From the NCBI RefSeq assembly GCF_030296055.1, contig NZ_AP027370.1, positions 124,001 to 188,000 on the forward strand: a stretch of 64,000 nucleotides of DNA. The letters are read 5' to 3'. The translations under genes were made by a program, and so were the position numbers. This DNA comes from Hydrogenimonas cancrithermarum. GTDB taxonomy: Bacteria; Campylobacterota; Campylobacteria; Campylobacterales; Hydrogenimonadaceae. Shown here piece by piece: positions 38,527 through 46,158 of this stretch (positions are counted from its first letter, which is position 1; every line of letters begins with the position of its first letter). The notes under the pieces are model-generated. The model had not been told where the DNA came from. It worked only from the letters and a program-made list of their open reading frames with translations, and did no database searches.

Positions 38527-41500
38527 ATGGGACAGTTTAATTTCAAAACGCTTATAACGGTTTTTTCGGTCTCTGCAACGATATTGATCGGCGGGTGCGG
38601 CTCCACCGGCACGAAATCGGATCACCAGCTCGTGGGTGGCGACAATCCATCGGTACCAACCATGTATACGATTGGCGGAACCTCCACCAATGTAAAAGGA
38701 GATGTCGTACTTCAGAACAACGGTGGGGACGACCTCACGGTCCATGCGGGTGACAACTCTTTCACGTTCGCCACACCGATGAGGGAGGGGAGCGGTTACA
38801 ATGTCACCATCCTCTCCGCTCCCACGGATCAGGACTGTACACTCTCCAACGCCAGTGGAACGGTTGCAAATTCCGATGTCACGGACATCACGCTTACCTG
38901 TGTCGACAAGAGCTATACGGTCGGTGGAACACTCGCCGGCCTCGACAGCGGCAATGATGTCGTACTGCAAAACAACGGTGGGGACAACCTCTCCCTGCAC
39001 GCCGATGGCACTTTCACCTTCGCTACGGCACTCCATACGGGGGAGCGTTACAACGTCACGGTCCAGACGCAGCCTGTGGGACAGGAGTGCAGCGTCGAAA
39101 ACGGCAGCGGTACGATCGTATCTTCCAACGTCACCGATATCAAAGTGACTTGTAACGACCTGACCAGTGTCGCACAGCTCGGTTATCTGGCTGGAGCCGA
39201 AGTCAAAATCTACGAAGTCGCAAGTGATGGAACGAAAACGCTCCTCTTCACCGAAACGACAAGCGAAGGGGATATTTCCACGAGCGGGCGGTTCGACGGC
39301 CATGCGGCGGATCTGGAAGATGGAAAGTGGTATCTCTACGAAGTGAGCGGCGGCAACGATATCGATGCCGACGACGACGGTTCGCTCGACACTACACCCA
39401 CGATCAACCGTGGAGTCGTCCACCTCTTCGCGAAAGGGAGCGACATTCGTGAGCACGGTTATGTACGCGTTACGATGGTGTCGGACGTTCTTTATCAGAA
39501 ATTCTGGCACGAAATCGCCACCAACCCCTATGCCATCGCCGAATCGGAATGGCAAGAGACTTTCGCGAAAATCATCGGCGAAGATCTCGACGGAGACGGG
39601 GCCGTCGGGTGGAGCGACGTGCTGGGTTTCGACCCCGTCTCGCACAAAAAGAAAATGCGTTACGCCTACCGATTGCGGCAGGCGGAGATCCTCGGCGAGA
39701 TCCACGCCGGCAACGGGTTTTACGAAGTGGGGGGACTCTTCTCTCTGGGCAGTCTCGGGGCGATCGATATGGTCAGTGAGATCGGCAACAACCATGACAT
39801 CCGGTTTGGCCGCGACGGCAGCCGACTCTATCTGACAGGGTATCAGGGAAATGAGAGGGGATTTTACATTCTCGATCTCGAACCCGATGCCTCCCACGCG
39901 GCGACCATGGCCGAAAAGGTGATCATCGACGAAGCCCGGGGGTTCGCCCTTTCATCCGACGAAAAGATCGCCTACGTAGCGGCGGGTGACGGCGGTGTCA
40001 AACGGGTGGACCTCTCCGTTTCGCCCGCTGCCGTCGGCGATTTGAACACGACCCTGGGTAACGCCCGGATCGTCGCCGTTTCTCCCGACGGAACCGCCCT
40101 CTATGTCGCCACCAAGGAGAAAATCTTCCTGCTCGACGCCGCCACGGGTGCCTCGCTGGGTTCGGCGCCTCTGGACGAAAACGTCAAGCAGCTGGTGCCG
40201 GATGCAGAGACGAAACGGCTTCTCGCCCTTTCGGGGTACGCCTCCTCCAGGCTGCAGGTCTACGACCTCTCCGATCCGGCCAATCCGGCGCGAAGTTACA
40301 CGCCGCTGGGCTTGGAGACCCACCGGTTCGCCTACTGCCGCGACGGTGCCAAAGCCTACATCGCGCTGGCCGGAGTACGGGAGAGCCATGCCGCCATCGA
40401 AATTGTGGATTTGACCGACCCGGCCGATCCCCAACCCCTCGGATCGTTCGCCAGCAGCGAAATGATCGGGAGCACCCAGCCCTTCTTCAGCGGCATCGCC
40501 TTCGCACCCGGCTGCAACAGGCTCTACACCTCGGGCCCGGGGGACTACATCGCACGCAACCTGACGGCGTTCGACGTCACGGACAAAAGCGCCCCGAAGG
40601 TGTTGGCGACATACACCCGTAGGAACATTAGCTACGATCATATCGTCCTCTCGCCCGACGGAAGCCTGATCGCCGGAATCAACGACTATCACCAACCTTC
40701 CGTCGTCGCGATCGAGGATCTGAACAAAAGCCGCATTCTCGGCACCAATGTCATTAGAGGGGGGATCATCGCCCTCAAGAAGGATGAAAGCCACCTCTAC
40801 CTGGCCAATTACAACAACTTTTTCGTCTACGACACAAGCCGCCGACCTGCCATCGACGGCAACGAAACGATCCTCGCGACGCTATCTTATGGCGGCGCAT
40901 ACCCCGGGGCCATTGCCCTTTCAGACGACGAGAGCCGTGCCTACGTCACCACCCGCGACAATGGCCTGGTGATCGTCGACCTGAACGAAACGAACCTGCA
41001 TGTGGTCGCCCAGACCGGCAAGACGGCACTCGGGGGCGAAGCGAAGGCACTTGCTCTCTCCGAAGATGGCAAATATGCCTATGTTGGCACCTGGAACCAC
41101 CTGCTCAAGGTCGTGAAGATCGATGACGAATCGAACGTGACGGTGGTCGGTTCGCTCGATCTGGAAAACGGCCAGTGCCTCGACATGGCTTTCGACGACA
41201 CGCGAAAGATACTTCATGTGGCCTGCGCGGGCGGAGGGGTCTATGTGGTCGACCTCTCGTCACCGGCAGATCCCGTCAAACGGTCGGAGTATACCGAGGG
41301 AGCATCCAACCTCAAAAACGTGGCACTCTCGCCCGACGGCAAAACACTCTATGTAGCCTACAACCGATCCACAGACGCCCTGGTCGTACTGGATACGAGC
41401 GATCCCGACGCTCCCGCCGTCGTGGCCCGGTCTGGCACCGATTTCGAGCTCAAGCCCCAAGAGACGCTTCTCTCTCCCGACGGGCGGCGCCTCTATGTCG

Positions 41501-41688
41501 CCGACCAGGGCTACTACAGCGGCTACGAAGCCAAGATTGTCGATGTGGAAGATCGCGAACACCCCCGGCTGATCGGACGGCTGCCCCACACCAACCGAAG
41601 CAGCAACGGGCTCGCCCTCGGCGGCGACGGCTCGCGGCTCTACGTGGGCGGTGGAAGCGGCGTGCTGCTGCTCGACGTTCGGGAGTGA
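38527..41688 (+). CDS. large lipoprotein with two Ig-like repeats and a beta-propeller-like region
   Basis: A 1,053-residue lipoprotein (signal ends LIGGC, Cys24). Two tandem modules of about 77 residues follow, each with YTVGGT/YTIGGT, DVVLQNNGGD, FTFAT and a cysteine pair (CTLSNASGT...LTC; CSVENGSGT...VTC). Residues around 245-380 form a separate domain. From about residue 400 the protein is made of repeated ALSPDGxxLYV / VVDLSDPADP blades, a YVTN/LVIVD-like beta-propeller. It should be displayed on the outer membrane or cell surface and bind a ligand or partner; function unknown. A strong hairpin follows. Confidence 0.82.
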   Translation: MGQFNFKTLITVFSVSATILIGGCGSTGTKSDHQLVGGDNPSVPTMYTIGGTSTNVKGDVVLQNNGGDDLTVHAGDNSFTFATPMREGSGYNVTILSAPTDQDCTLSNASGTVANSDVTDITLTCVDKSYTVGGTLAGLDSGNDVVLQNNGGDNLSLHADGTFTFATALHTGERYNVTVQTQPVGQECSVENGSGTIVSSNVTDIKVTCNDLTSVAQLGYLAGAEVKIYEVASDGTKTLLFTETTSEGDISTSGRFDGHAADLEDGKWYLYEVSGGNDIDADDDGSLDTTPTINRGVVHLFAKGSDIREHGYVRVTMVSDVLYQKFWHEIATNPYAIAESEWQETFAKIIGEDLDGDGAVGWSDVLGFDPVSHKKKMRYAYRLRQAEILGEIHAGNGFYEVGGLFSLGSLGAIDMVSEIGNNHDIRFGRDGSRLYLTGYQGNERGFYILDLEPDASHAATMAEKVIIDEARGFALSSDEKIAYVAAGDGGVKRVDLSVSPAAVGDLNTTLGNARIVAVSPDGTALYVATKEKIFLLDAATGASLGSAPLDENVKQLVPDAETKRLLALSGYASSRLQVYDLSDPANPARSYTPLGLETHRFAYCRDGAKAYIALAGVRESHAAIEIVDLTDPADPQPLGSFASSEMIGSTQPFFSGIAFAPGCNRLYTSGPGDYIARNLTAFDVTDKSAPKVLATYTRRNISYDHIVLSPDGSLIAGINDYHQPSVVAIEDLNKSRILGTNVIRGGIIALKKDESHLYLANYNNFFVYDTSRRPAIDGNETILATLSYGGAYPGAIALSDDESRAYVTTRDNGLVIVDLNETNLHVVAQTGKTALGGEAKALALSEDGKYAYVGTWNHLLKVVKIDDESNVTVVGSLDLENGQCLDMAFDDTRKILHVACAGGGVYVVDLSSPADPVKRSEYTEGASNLKNVALSPDGKTLYVAYNRSTDALVVLDTSDPDAPAVVARSGTDFELKPQETLLSPDGRRLYVADQGYYSGYEAKIVDVEDREHPRLIGRLPHTNRSSNGLALGGDGSRLYVGGGSGVLLLDVRE

Positions 41689-41725: not shown

Positions 41726-41815
41726 ACCCGTATGTTCACCTGTGGGTAGGAGAGTCTTTTTGGCTTTTTCTCATGCCGACATGCTAAAATATGGCATCAG
41801 CAACAGGTGGAAACA

Positions 41816-44179
41816 ATGCAAAATTTCGAAACGTTCGCGAAACAAGAGATGATCGGGCAGGAGAGAGCCTTGGGGTTTCTCTCTCCTGTCGTCGAAAGGG
41901 TGGGGCGGCTTAGGCTGTTCGATGGTGTCGAAGGGCTCATCACACTGGCCGGGCCGCCGGCATGTGGCAAAAATTTCGCGGCGAAACTCATCGGACGCTA
42001 CCTCCAGCGCGAGATACTCGTACTTCATATGGGAGAATACGCTTTTTCGGACGATATCGGCCGTCTTGTCGGAAAAGAGGGGGTTCTGGAAAAGTGGATC
42101 GCGGAACATCCCAACGGTGTCGTGATCTGTGAAGATATCGACAAGGCGGACCATTCGATCCAACGGACACTCGCCAGCATCGTCGCAGACGGTGCACCCG
42201 ACGATGTCAGACGCTACCGGCAATCACTCTTTCTCTTCACTTTTACGCTCGGCGATCCCGCATGGTATGAAAAAAAGTTCGTCGACAGCTATTATGAAAA
42301 CCCGCTTTTGAGGCAGGGGAAGTTTTTCGAAGAGATCGCCAAGGTCGCATCACACGATGAAGATGGAAACCTCATATCCCTCTTCGACGCACAGATTCTC
42401 ACGGTACTGAGTGAAGGTGACCTCGCACTCTTCTATGCTCTGGATATCAAAGCACTTTGGCAGATAAGCGAGCGCATACTGCAACGGACCGTCAGCCGGC
42501 TCAATGCCGTCACCCTGACCCAAATCGAAATAAAATCGCCCGAAACTCTGGCACTCGGGCTTCTGCTCGGTTTCTCCCCCTACCTCAATGCCAAGCGTAT
42601 CGCTCACAAGCTTCCCGCACTTCTTGCCGACAGACTCTTGTTAAGCTGTGAAGGTGCCGAAACGTGTCGATTCAACGTCTCGGCAAAAGCCGAAAAATGG
42701 ATGCGGAGCTTTTTCGATCTCTCGTTCGATCTGAAATATTTCGTCAAATTCGAACGCCGTTTCGAACTCACATGGAAAGTGCAGAAGAGAAAGAACAGTG
42801 TCAGCGTAACGCTCGATTCGCTCCGTGAAGTCGAAACGCAAAAGCCGGACCAGAGAACCGCCTATGCCGACAGGCTCGCCATCAAGGCGTCCCATATAGG
42901 ATTCAAGGATGTAGCGGGGCAGGTTAGAGTCAAAAAGGAGCTCAAGTCGATTATCGAAGTCCTTCAAAACGAAAAAGGGTTGAGACATTTTCATATCTCT
43001 CTTCCCAAAGGACTGCTCCTCTACGGCCCGGAAGGAGTTGGCAAGACGATGCTCGTCAAAGCTTTCGCGAAAGAAGCGGGGTTGCCTTATATCTATCTGC
43101 GCAACATCGATCTTTTCGACGAATTGTTGATTCAGGAAGTGTATGCCAGGGCACGTATCGCGGCACCCGTCATCGTCGTGCTCGAAGGCGTCGACACAAA
43201 AGGTGTCGTCGATGGAAACTACACCCATATCCCCACGGGTGTCCTGTGCGAGATGATCGACCATGTGCCGTCCGAGCCCGACAACTATATTTTTACCGTC
43301 GCGACAGCCAGAGAGATCGAAGAGGTCCCGGAAGACCTGACCCATCCGGGACGTATCGACCAGAGTGTCGAGGTCCCGGAACTCGATCGTGAAGCGCGTC
43401 GCTTCTTCGCGAAGAAGATACTCGAAAAACCGCATGAAGAGGGGATCGACATCGACCGTATCACCCGTTACATGACGGGAATGAACGGCTACGAGCTTGG
43501 ACGCATCGCCAAAGAGGCGGCACTCGACGCCTTGAGAGCGGGCAAAGAGAAGCTGACCGAAGCCATCATCATCGACCGAATCAACACGATCAAATATGGC
43601 CACAAACTCGAAAAGAAGCGGTTTAAGAACTTCGAAGAGGACTTGAAAAAGAGTGCCTGGCACGAAGCGGCGCATGCCGTCACCTCGCTACGGCTGCTTC
43701 CCGATGTGGAGATCGAGCAGGTCACAGTGATCCCGAGAAGCGAAGCCCTCGGCTTGGTCTCCTACATGCAAGACGCCATCGAGACCAACATGAGCAAAGA
43801 GGACATCGAAGGCAACATCGCCGTTCTGCTGGCGGGACGCCTGGCGACGATCAAAAAATTCGGCAAAGAGAAGGGACTCGAAACCGGTGCCTACAACGAT
43901 TTGCAAGAGGCATCGCTCTATGCTTACAGTGCCGTGGCACAGTTCGGCATGGATGAGGAGCTTTTGAATATCAGTATCGAACTACTGCTTCAAAACATCA
44001 ACAACAATCTTTTTAAAGAGAAGATCGAATCACGTATCGCCCACTGGATCGAAAAGGGGACGAAGCGTGCCGAAGCGGTCATCGAAAAAGAGTGGAAAAC
44101 AATCGAAAAGATCGCCAAAAAGCTGCTGAAAGAGGAGGTCATCGAAGGCAGCGAGCTGAAGGAGATGGTGAAGGGATGA
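41816..44179 (+). CDS. soluble Clp-like AAA + FtsH-like AAA/M41 metalloprotease fusion
   Basis: A 787-residue protein without membrane helices. Residues 1-180 look like a Clp D2-type AAA module: Walker A-like GPPACGKN (46-53) and VVICEDIDKAD (102-112) where Clp has DEIEKAH. Residues about 370-590 are an FtsH-like AAA domain with Walker A GPEGVGKT (403-410), but Walker B reads VIVVLEGVD, so the DE pair is Glu-Gly, and the arginine-finger region is HPGRID. Residues 600-787 are an M41 zinc protease with HEAAH (616-620) and third ligand Asp695 (GAYNDLQEA). It resembles the soluble second FtsH homologue of Helicobacter (HP0286) but with an added N-terminal module. Start ATG 41816 has GGTGGA upstream. 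Confidence 0.88.
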   Translation: MQNFETFAKQEMIGQERALGFLSPVVERVGRLRLFDGVEGLITLAGPPACGKNFAAKLIGRYLQREILVLHMGEYAFSDDIGRLVGKEGVLEKWIAEHPNGVVICEDIDKADHSIQRTLASIVADGAPDDVRRYRQSLFLFTFTLGDPAWYEKKFVDSYYENPLLRQGKFFEEIAKVASHDEDGNLISLFDAQILTVLSEGDLALFYALDIKALWQISERILQRTVSRLNAVTLTQIEIKSPETLALGLLLGFSPYLNAKRIAHKLPALLADRLLLSCEGAETCRFNVSAKAEKWMRSFFDLSFDLKYFVKFERRFELTWKVQKRKNSVSVTLDSLREVETQKPDQRTAYADRLAIKASHIGFKDVAGQVRVKKELKSIIEVLQNEKGLRHFHISLPKGLLLYGPEGVGKTMLVKAFAKEAGLPYIYLRNIDLFDELLIQEVYARARIAAPVIVVLEGVDTKGVVDGNYTHIPTGVLCEMIDHVPSEPDNYIFTVATAREIEEVPEDLTHPGRIDQSVEVPELDREARRFFAKKILEKPHEEGIDIDRITRYMTGMNGYELGRIAKEAALDALRAGKEKLTEAIIIDRINTIKYGHKLEKKRFKNFEEDLKKSAWHEAAHAVTSLRLLPDVEIEQVTVIPRSEALGLVSYMQDAIETNMSKEDIEGNIAVLLAGRLATIKKFGKEKGLETGAYNDLQEASLYAYSAVAQFGMDEELLNISIELLLQNINNNLFKEKIESRIAHWIEKGTKRAEAVIEKEWKTIEKIAKKLLKEEVIEGSELKEMVKG

Positions 44180-44307: not shown

Positions 44308-45231
44308 CTACTCATTCTCAAAATAATCCGAATCGAGTTTTTTGATCTCATATATCCCGACAGTAGTTACTCCGACATTATGTTCGACCATGAGTTTCGC
44401 CAGGCGCTCGCCATCAATGAGAATTATTTTCGATTCAATACGCGAGACATATTTTATCGCTTCTTTTGTAAATGATGACGTCGTGATAAATACACCCTTT
44501 TTAGCACGCTGGCCCTGCAAAGCTCCTGCAAATTTCTGAATTTCAGGGCGGCCAACTGTACCCTCACTCCAGCGCTTTGCTTGAATATAAATGACATCCA
44601 ATCCAAGCCGGTCTTCATTGATGATGCCGTCAATGCCGCCATCCCCGCTTTTCCCGAGTGCCTTTCCGGCATCTTGGCGGCTTCCTCCATATCCCATTTT
44701 TACAAGTAAATCGACAACCAAACGTTCAAAAAACGAAGGGGATGCCTCTTTGACAACATTGATCACTTCTGATTCAAGAGCTGATCGAAGCAATTTATAC
44801 GCTTCTGCAAGAGAATCTTCCGGGGTTAAGTCGGAATCTTGTCCTGTAGATATTTCTATTTGGGCATCGTTTTCGCTTTTTGTCTTTTTTCGCTTTTTGA
44901 ACTCAATAAACTCGGGATACTGTTCAAGGACAGATACATCTATTTTGACTGGATTTGTGCTGAGCAATTCCAGTCCTTTTGGAGTAATGGTGAAAAAGCC
45001 TCTTCTTGGCGATTCGAGCAGACCTGCTTGTTTGAGATATGAACGTGCCCAGCCAACACGATTGTTAAAAACAGGTTGACTTCCGCTAGGAAGAAGCTCG
45101 TTTCTTTCTTCAGCCGTTAAATTGAATTCATTCGCCAATTCTTCCACTGCTTGACTGAATTTGTGTTCCTTGCCGTCTGAGGCCAATTTTAGAAGTGGTA
45201 ACATAATTGTTTGATAATTTGGTATAGCCAC
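44308..45231 (-). CDS. mrr: Mrr-family type IV restriction endonuclease
   Basis: A 307-residue Mrr-like nuclease that would cut methylated DNA. The N-terminal Mrr_N winged helix starts VAIPNYQTIMLPLL. The C-terminal PD-(D/E)XK domain has GDGGIDGIINEDRLG followed by VIYIQAKRW, the D-QxK active site. GTG 45231 gives the family length; the longer frame begins with TTG and lacks family similarity. The gene stands alone between two repeat-like segments, in the accessory region that also holds HepT/MntA. Confidence 0.9.
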   Translation of the reverse strand: MAIPNYQTIMLPLLKLASDGKEHKFSQAVEELANEFNLTAEERNELLPSGSQPVFNNRVGWARSYLKQAGLLESPRRGFFTITPKGLELLSTNPVKIDVSVLEQYPEFIEFKKRKKTKSENDAQIEISTGQDSDLTPEDSLAEAYKLLRSALESEVINVVKEASPSFFERLVVDLLVKMGYGGSRQDAGKALGKSGDGGIDGIINEDRLGLDVIYIQAKRWSEGTVGRPEIQKFAGALQGQRAKKGVFITTSSFTKEAIKYVSRIESKIILIDGERLAKLMVEHNVGVTTVGIYEIKKLDSDYFENE

Positions 45232-45336
45232 AGTTCTAAATATCCCTTTTAATCTATAGATAATTTTTTTAAATCCAATATTACTCAATAAAAACTTAAA
45301 TAAGTGAGTAAGGGAGAGGGTAAAAGAGAACTATAG

Positions 45337-45488: not shown

Positions 45489-45851
45489 TTATCCACAAGC
45501 TTCCAACGCTTTTTTTGCCGACTTTTCGATGATCGGCAGGCGTGACGTTATGACATCCTCCACGATGTAGAGATCCACACCTTCGTAATCATGGGCGATG
45601 AAATTGCGAAGATCGTAACTGCCTTTGATATCCTGTTTGTCGAAATAGGCGAGTAGCTCGACTTCGCCGTTATGCAGGAGTTTGTCAAACTGCTCGGCGA
45701 TGCTCGTGAGGTGCATCAAAATCGCTGCGCGACTTTCGGCTTCGTCTGCCAGGGCGTTTTCGATCGAACCGTGTTTTTGGATGATGGTATCGATAAAACC
45801 GATCTTTTTAAGTATCGTTTCGATCCGGTGCAGCGCTTTGGGGTCACACAT
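45489..45851 (-). CDS. hepT: HepT-like HEPN ribonuclease toxin
   Basis: A 120-residue helical HEPN protein with the RNase motif RNFIAHDY (Arg82, His87, Tyr89), the R-X4-6-H-X-Y form typical of HepT toxins. HepT cleaves RNA and is neutralised by AMP transfer to the Tyr of this motif by the MNT partner. The gene overlaps the upstream mntA gene by eight bases, the normal order for this toxin-antitoxin system. Chromosomal stability or anti-phage defence are the usual proposals. Confidence 0.88.
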   Translation of the reverse strand: MCDPKALHRIETILKKIGFIDTIIQKHGSIENALADEAESRAAILMHLTSIAEQFDKLLHNGEVELLAYFDKQDIKGSYDLRNFIAHDYEGVDLYIVEDVITSRLPIIEKSAKKALEACG

Positions 45852-46158
45852 CGATCAGCTCACGTTGGATGCGTTTACGTAGAGGACTTTGGCTGTCCAG
45901 GTCGAAAAGGTCGACGGGGCGATGCAGCCGTTTTTGTAGAGTGTCACGGAGGAATCGAAGCGTGTCGAAGTAGTCGTATCCGCTGAAATGTTTTCGATAG
46001 TCGGCTCTTTTGCCGAAGGCGATATCGATGTCGCTGTAGACATTTTGCCTGCCGGTGGCGTAACTGCCGAAGAGTCCTATCTTTTCGATCCCTCGGGCTG
46101 CCAGAGAGGCTTTGATCTCTGTGAGCACTTCCAAAATCTCGTTTCGTGTCGGTTTCAT
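45844..46158 (-). CDS. mntA: MntA-like minimal nucleotidyltransferase antitoxin
   Basis: A 104-residue protein of the DNA polymerase beta superfamily: GSYATGRQNVYSDIDIAFG (residues 31-49) contains the GSX10DXD motif with Ser32, Asp43 and Asp45. In characterised pairs MntA adds AMP to the HEPN tyrosine of HepT. Its overlap with hepT ensures both are made together. The start codon ATG 46158 precedes the typical NEILEVLTEIK helix. Confidence 0.9.
   Translation of the reverse strand: MKPTRNEILEVLTEIKASLAARGIEKIGLFGSYATGRQNVYSDIDIAFGKRADYRKHFSGYDYFDTLRFLRDTLQKRLHRPVDLFDLDSQSPLRKRIQRELIDV

Follow-up and report, generated by a model that had tools for sequence, protein, structure and literature searches.

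The window, by which we mean the whole 64,000 nt stretch of Hydrogenimonas cancrithermarum DNA analyzed here, contains a genuine open reading frame on the plus strand at positions 41816–44179. It starts with the ATG at 41816, ends with the stop codon at 44177–44179 and encodes a protein of 787 aa. A GTG is found in frame at 41807, ahead of this ATG, and a promoter scan upstream of the gene gave nothing convincing. Pfam matched the 787 aa protein to AAA_2 (residues 42–126, weakly), AAA (400–521) and Peptidase_M41 (609–783), and a profile of the first-module family matched the D2 structures of ClpB with an E-value of 1e-43. These matches bear out the domain order given in an earlier note on this DNA, namely a Clp D2-like module followed by an FtsH AAA module and an M41 protease. 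The complete gene can be divided into a Clp-D2-like AAA+ core (about residues 9–160, positions 41840–42295), a lid/linker between the two AAA modules, which is the least conserved part (about residues 161–355, 42296–42880), an FtsH-type AAA module (about residues 356–600, 42881–43615) and the M41 zinc protease domain (residues 609–785, 43640–44170), all on the plus strand. The protein is soluble as far as can be told from its hydropathy: no transmembrane segment was found, and the best 19-residue value is 1.38, compared with 2.53 for the canonical FtsH and 3.23 for the HP0286-type FtsH of the same genome. The absence of a membrane anchor, also claimed in the earlier note, thus holds. Against TIGR01241 the protein scores 194.3 bits, where the family cut-off is 600.

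Both ATPase sites deviate from the canonical motifs. In the first module the Walker A motif reads GPPACGKN (residues 46–53, 41951–41974, +), with Asn in place of Thr/Ser, and the Walker B motif reads VVICEDID (residues 102–109, 42119–42142, +), with ED (106–107) in place of DE. In the second module Walker A (GPEGVGKT, residues 404–411, 43025–43048, +) is intact, and Walker B reads LEGVD (residues 456–460, 43181–43195, +). This aligns with I-D-E-I-D of FtsH, so that Asp is changed to Glu and the catalytic Glu to Gly. The same alterations had been noted before, together with the caveat that the Walker B residues might align differently and be intact; they were altered in every alignment made. 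The sensor-1 Asn and two of the three FtsH arginines of the second region of homology (SRH) are lost, and the remaining one, R513, is found in HPGRIDQ (residues 510–516, 43343–43363, +). Alignment with relatives further showed that the two loops that grip the substrate, the Clp GYVG-type and the FtsH FVG pore loop, are both absent. The first is deleted at residues 87–88 (42074–42079, +), leaving an 8-residue gap relative to the long forms described below, and the second at residues 435–436 (43118–43123, +), leaving a 6-residue gap relative to FtsH. The zinc protease site is intact, as previously stated, with HEAAH at residues 616–620 (H616, E617 and H620; 43661–43675, +) and the third zinc ligand D695 at 43898–43900 (+).

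To predict the fold of the C-terminal part we used AlphaFold2 on residues 350–787 (438 residues) with FtsH sequences from viral contigs in the alignment, which gave a pLDDT of 85.6 and a pTM of 0.68. In VIA-align the model matched FtsH from T. maritima (2ce7; Z 32.5, 394 residues aligned, rmsd 5.8) and from B. burgdorferi (7zbh; Z 31.8, 355 residues aligned, rmsd 4.2). Foldseek agreed, and this part of the protein thus has the FtsH cytosolic fold. A whole-protein AlphaFold model built with a single close relative reached a pLDDT of only 35, so that where the Clp layer sits is something that we infer. An alignment that included viral Clp segments was dropped, as MAFFT placed these segments on the second AAA module (AAA2) rather than on the first.

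Compared with FtsH (HflB; MEROPS M41/TIGR01241), the protein shares the order of AAA and M41, the fold of residues 350–787 and an M41 domain with HEXXH and the third Asp, but it lacks the anchor, a competent AAA site with the catalytic Glu, and the FVG loop, and it carries an additional Clp-D2-like module. This first module belongs to the same sequence family as the D2 AAA+ modules of ClpA, ClpB and ClpC. It differs from them in being fused to FtsH/M41 and in having no ClpP docking, and the functional Walker motifs and GYVG-type loop of Clp/Hsp100 proteins are degenerate or missing.

In order to assess the distribution of the family we surveyed 397 Campylobacterota genomes, in which a clear score gap separates the members from ordinary FtsH. 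The family was present in 39 of them. According to our reading of the survey table it comprises 26 resident full-length copies of the window type (∼790 aa; the window's own copy and a frameshifted one are included), seven short forms of ∼450 aa that lack the Clp module, and six long forms of 874–1092 aa. All five sampled genomes of the window genus have kept the gene, and it is also found in other families of the phylum. The first-module profile gave family-level matches solely in the 32 genomes that have fused copies. The module is hence confined to the fused family and is not a common FtsH2 domain, and it is absent from HP0286-type FtsH2 across the 397 phylum genomes, in line with the earlier note. 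No family-level copy of the module was found elsewhere in the short-form genomes. The idea that the short forms have their Clp module as a separate gene was ruled out, as there is none elsewhere in the genomes or in the flanking ORFs. Outside the phylum, the search covered plasmids, phages and viral contigs along with one close-relative scan of genome contigs. No fused relative was found among the plasmids, phages and viral contigs, where the viral matches were ordinary FtsH or Clp-like proteins. We also found no paper on an M41-Clp fusion. The frameshifted resident copy (L061 6880–8862, genome G146) stops within M41 after HEAGH and has lost the third zinc ligand. The truncation is apparently due to a frameshift, which makes it a pseudogene or a sequencing error.

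The three forms differ in how much of the motor is left. In the long forms both Walker A motifs, the DE pair of AAA2 (6/6) and an aromatic Clp pore loop are preserved, and the FtsH pore loop is the only loop that is gone. Judged by these motifs, a reasonable reading is that the long form has a Clp ring that would pull substrate into an FtsH-M41 ring. The Clp GY..-type loop region, present in the six long forms, is deleted in 26/26 resident full-length proteins. In the same 26 proteins one of N, K, V, R or H takes the place of the Thr in the first Walker A motif. DE is never found in their first Walker B motif, and the catalytic position of the Clp module is Asp in the whole group. His occupies the Walker A Thr position in six resident members (GKHY). 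The DE pair of AAA2 is lost in 27 of 32 resident proteins (EG, ES, EN, DN or ED) and survives in one resident lineage, L013–L017. Common to all 38 family proteins inspected is a six-residue deletion of the FVG loop. This loop is present in the window genome's own FtsH and HP0286-type FtsH and in 57 of 58 unrelated FtsH homologues from viral contigs, all of which have HExxH and DEID. The protease motif HExxH is kept in 37/38 family proteins. The exception is a long form (L057 6587–9211, −) with YEAGH as its zinc motif and DA in its first Walker B motif, and it comes from a genome without DUF4062, a domain considered below. A set of 25 resident full-length proteins has, without exception, the P-loop Gly and Lys in each module, D107, R513 and the zinc ligands.

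A tree of the C-terminal region was built with IQ-TREE. The resident full-length and short forms make up one clade (support 100/99) with the long forms outside. Support for the long forms as a single group was 69/56, and some deeper nodes had bootstrap values of 80–90. As the L013–L017 lineage with its DE pair nests among altered lineages, the catalytic Glu of AAA2 was probably lost more than once. The motifs of the outgroup and the tree together suggest that the long form is closer to the ancestor and that the window type is a resident derivative. For unsaturated pairs, pairwise dN/dS was about 0.02–0.06 in AAA2 and about 0.01–0.07 in M41, compared with 0.06–0.18 in the Clp core and 0.04–0.21 in the linker region. 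The low values in AAA2 and M41 speak for strong purifying selection and indicate that neither region is decaying and, along with the conservation in the genus and in other families, that the altered protein is more than a chance event. The degenerate AAA2 is as constrained as the protease, and the P-loop residues of both modules, D107 and R513 are invariant, which speaks against decay and for a role in structure or in the binding of nucleotide.

As both ATP-powered engines lack key parts while the cutting site is kept, energy-free cutting of unfolded proteins is probable. The reading that we favor, with somewhat more confidence than doubt, is that the gene product is a soluble zinc protease, probably a hexamer, which descends from a single-chain Clp-D2/FtsH ancestor, has lost its motor and works independently of ATP. 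The two AAA layers would still bind nucleotide, keep the ring assembled and serve as its antechamber or gate, without being able to pull. Chains that are unfolded or unstructured would diffuse in, and the M41 ring would cut them with no need for ATP hydrolysis. The earlier note had suggested a protease with a regulatory or ATP-independent unfolding mode. Its observation is confirmed and its interpretation partly supported: an ATP-independent or regulatory protease is plausible, but since both pore loops are deleted, we would rather predict that the protein does no active unfolding.

The closest experimentally studied precedent for such a protein is LonC from Meiothermus taiwanensis, which has the Walker A sequence GPPSLGKHE and no catalytic Glu, forms a hexamer that binds six nucleotides but has no ATPase activity, and cuts unfolded but not folded substrates independently of ATP (PMC3391209). 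The protease site and the AAA module are retained in both proteins, and both have lost the Walker B Glu, the sensors and the Walker A Thr. LonC is a Ser-Lys Lon protease with one AAA module, whereas the window protein has a zinc M41 domain and two such modules, and its activity is a prediction. By analogy, we predict that the window protein resembles LonC in the way it works, though it does not belong to the LonC family, and it may be regarded as a putative counterpart of ATP-independent LonC in the FtsH lineage.

The invariant P-loop lysines in both modules and the retained R513 could also mean that the protein is still an ATP-dependent unfoldase-protease, with non-canonical sites that hydrolyze ATP slowly or by means of other residues and with other surfaces that grip the substrate. 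That L013–L017 keep the DE pair of AAA2 counts against a dead motor, and the Asp at the catalytic position, found in the Clp module of the resident full-length forms and in several lineages, may leave slow hydrolysis. We nevertheless consider ATP-driven unfolding unlikely for the window protein, in which AAA2 has Gly at the catalytic position and no sensor-1 Asn, Asn replaces the Walker A Thr in module one and both pore loops are absent.

The window genome has three M41-type genes, i.e., canonical FtsH (L001), an HP0286-like gene (L003 199–1848) for a membrane-anchored protein of 549 aa, and the window gene. We take this second FtsH to be the equivalent of Helicobacter HP0286; no paper that joins HP0286 with FtsH was found in the literature searched. 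HP0286-type FtsH was detected in 60 of 61 sampled genomes of the phylum. In all 30 sequences examined (L003 and L066–L094) HEXXH is replaced by YQxxK, or once by YKxxK, and the Walker A and B motifs and the pore loop are kept. Going by these motifs, the HP0286-type FtsH is apparently a phylum-wide pseudo-protease. HP0286 had been named in the earlier note as the nearest thing to the window protein, which did not hold up. Orthology is ruled out by the separate L003 in the same genome and by the opposite degeneracy. The two share the FtsH family and the genome, but the HP0286-type protein is a mirror image of the window protein and not the parent of it, with a membrane anchor, no Clp module, an intact ATPase and pore loop, and HEXXH lost. 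Plant FtsHi and the Ycf2-FtsHi complex (PMC8197885; PDB 8xku) are likewise degenerate FtsH relatives under selection, but they have lost the protease site, which the window protein keeps next to a degenerate ATPase.

This complementary degeneracy within one genome, a motor-dead protein next to a protease-dead FtsH2, raises the idea of a mixed complex, in which an ATPase-competent partner would use the protease sites of the window protein, the most obvious candidate being the HP0286-type FtsH2. Alternatively, the window protein might modulate canonical FtsH. FtsH complexes of plants do combine active with inactive subunits (PMC8197885). Such an arrangement is rather improbable here. The window protein is soluble and has an additional Clp layer, and the genes were not seen to be linked. 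As nearly all genomes of the phylum have FtsH2 but just 39/397 have the window family, FtsH2 can do without it.

The surroundings of the gene are conserved within the genus (TruD upstream, among others). Across genera no conserved operon partner was found, and neighbors are kept just within the genus or close genera. In the window itself, a gene for a 1053 aa LVIVD-repeat beta-propeller protein lies immediately upstream (38527–41688, +), which was not found beside the protease in relatives. Just downstream is an Mrr-type restriction endonuclease with Mrr_N and Mrr_cat (44308–45288, −), followed by a HepT-like (HEPN)/nucleotidyltransferase (MNT) pair, likely a toxin-antitoxin module (45489–45851 and 45844–46158, −).

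The long forms are found in other company. Four of the six directly adjoin genes for DUF4062 and STAND/NPHP3-like NTPases, and some of the loci also carry TIR, TrkA-N or SLOG-like genes, the last of these read by eye. DUF4062 was detected in 4/6 long-form carriers as against 3/98 non-carrier genomes in a sample of the phylum (Fisher P ∼1e-4, or ∼1e-3 with two near-identical carriers counted once). It was found in none of the 18 resident-form genomes tested and is absent from the window genome. Operon-like clusters surround the long Clp-FtsH protease at L055 6649–17001, L058 1–14788, L059 1–13999 and L060 6961–15396, with DUF4062-STAND giants, a TIR protein, TrkA-N proteins and a SLOG-like protein, and we regard these as candidate antiphage operons. 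PADLOC did not match the clusters as a unit, and its matches to the protease were only generic AAA ones. Directly upstream of two long-form genes (L055 6649–7191 and L056 6709–7341) lies a gene for a protein of 180–210 aa, which has no Pfam match and looks YbjN-like by eye, and the protease gene of L056 is followed by one for an ankyrin-repeat protein. A 2026 preprint has shown DUF4062 to be a TIR-like NADase in the antiphage system Swarozyc and notes further DUF4062 proteins that share their operons with a variety of enzymes; FtsH and AAA proteins are not mentioned in its main text (PMC13174449). Swarozyc thus shares DUF4062 with the neighbor genes of the long forms, while the window gene is outside any such locus.

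From this context, the long form with its intact ATPase sites would act in DUF4062-STAND defense operons, and the window type would be a resident derivative of it. In a broader scenario, a new family of three-tier single-chain Clp-FtsH proteases, with an ATP-driven Clp ring that feeds an FtsH-M41 ring, would have arisen in DUF4062/TIR-type antiphage operons. Campylobacterota would then have domesticated it as a protease that needs no energy and whose dead AAA rings form a nucleotide-sensing gate. This scenario is tentative and less likely than not. The DUF4062-STAND, TIR and SLOG-like neighbors of the long forms, and P-loops that are invariant though the hydrolysis residues are lost, would also fit a signal-gated protease, in which the AAA modules are sensors of nucleotide or stress that open the protease, a trait of the defense-linked ancestor. 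We find this doubtful for the window protein, whose gene stands alone without such neighbors and whose relatives of the resident form yielded no DUF4062 in the 18 genomes tested; PADLOC reported generic AAA matches only. A decaying, functionless, pseudogene-like remnant, as the many lost canonical motifs and the frameshifted relative L061 might suggest, is highly improbable and already contradicted by dN/dS values well below 0.1 in AAA2 and M41, the invariant zinc ligands and a frame that is open across genera.

Descriptions of FtsH present it as a membrane protease that depends on ATP. The family of the window protein, for which we favor ATP-independent cutting of unfolded chains, is a conserved soluble branch of FtsH, in which the motor degenerates and the protease stays. 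The series from the long form over the degenerate full-length form to the short form offers a natural set of intermediates with which the contribution of AAA rings to a chambered protease, besides pulling, can be studied. Together with the mirror-image HP0286-type pseudo-protease, both halves of FtsH appear to have been separately inactivated in one phylum. The long form, finally, suggests that DUF4062-NADase defense operons can include an AAA+ protease component.
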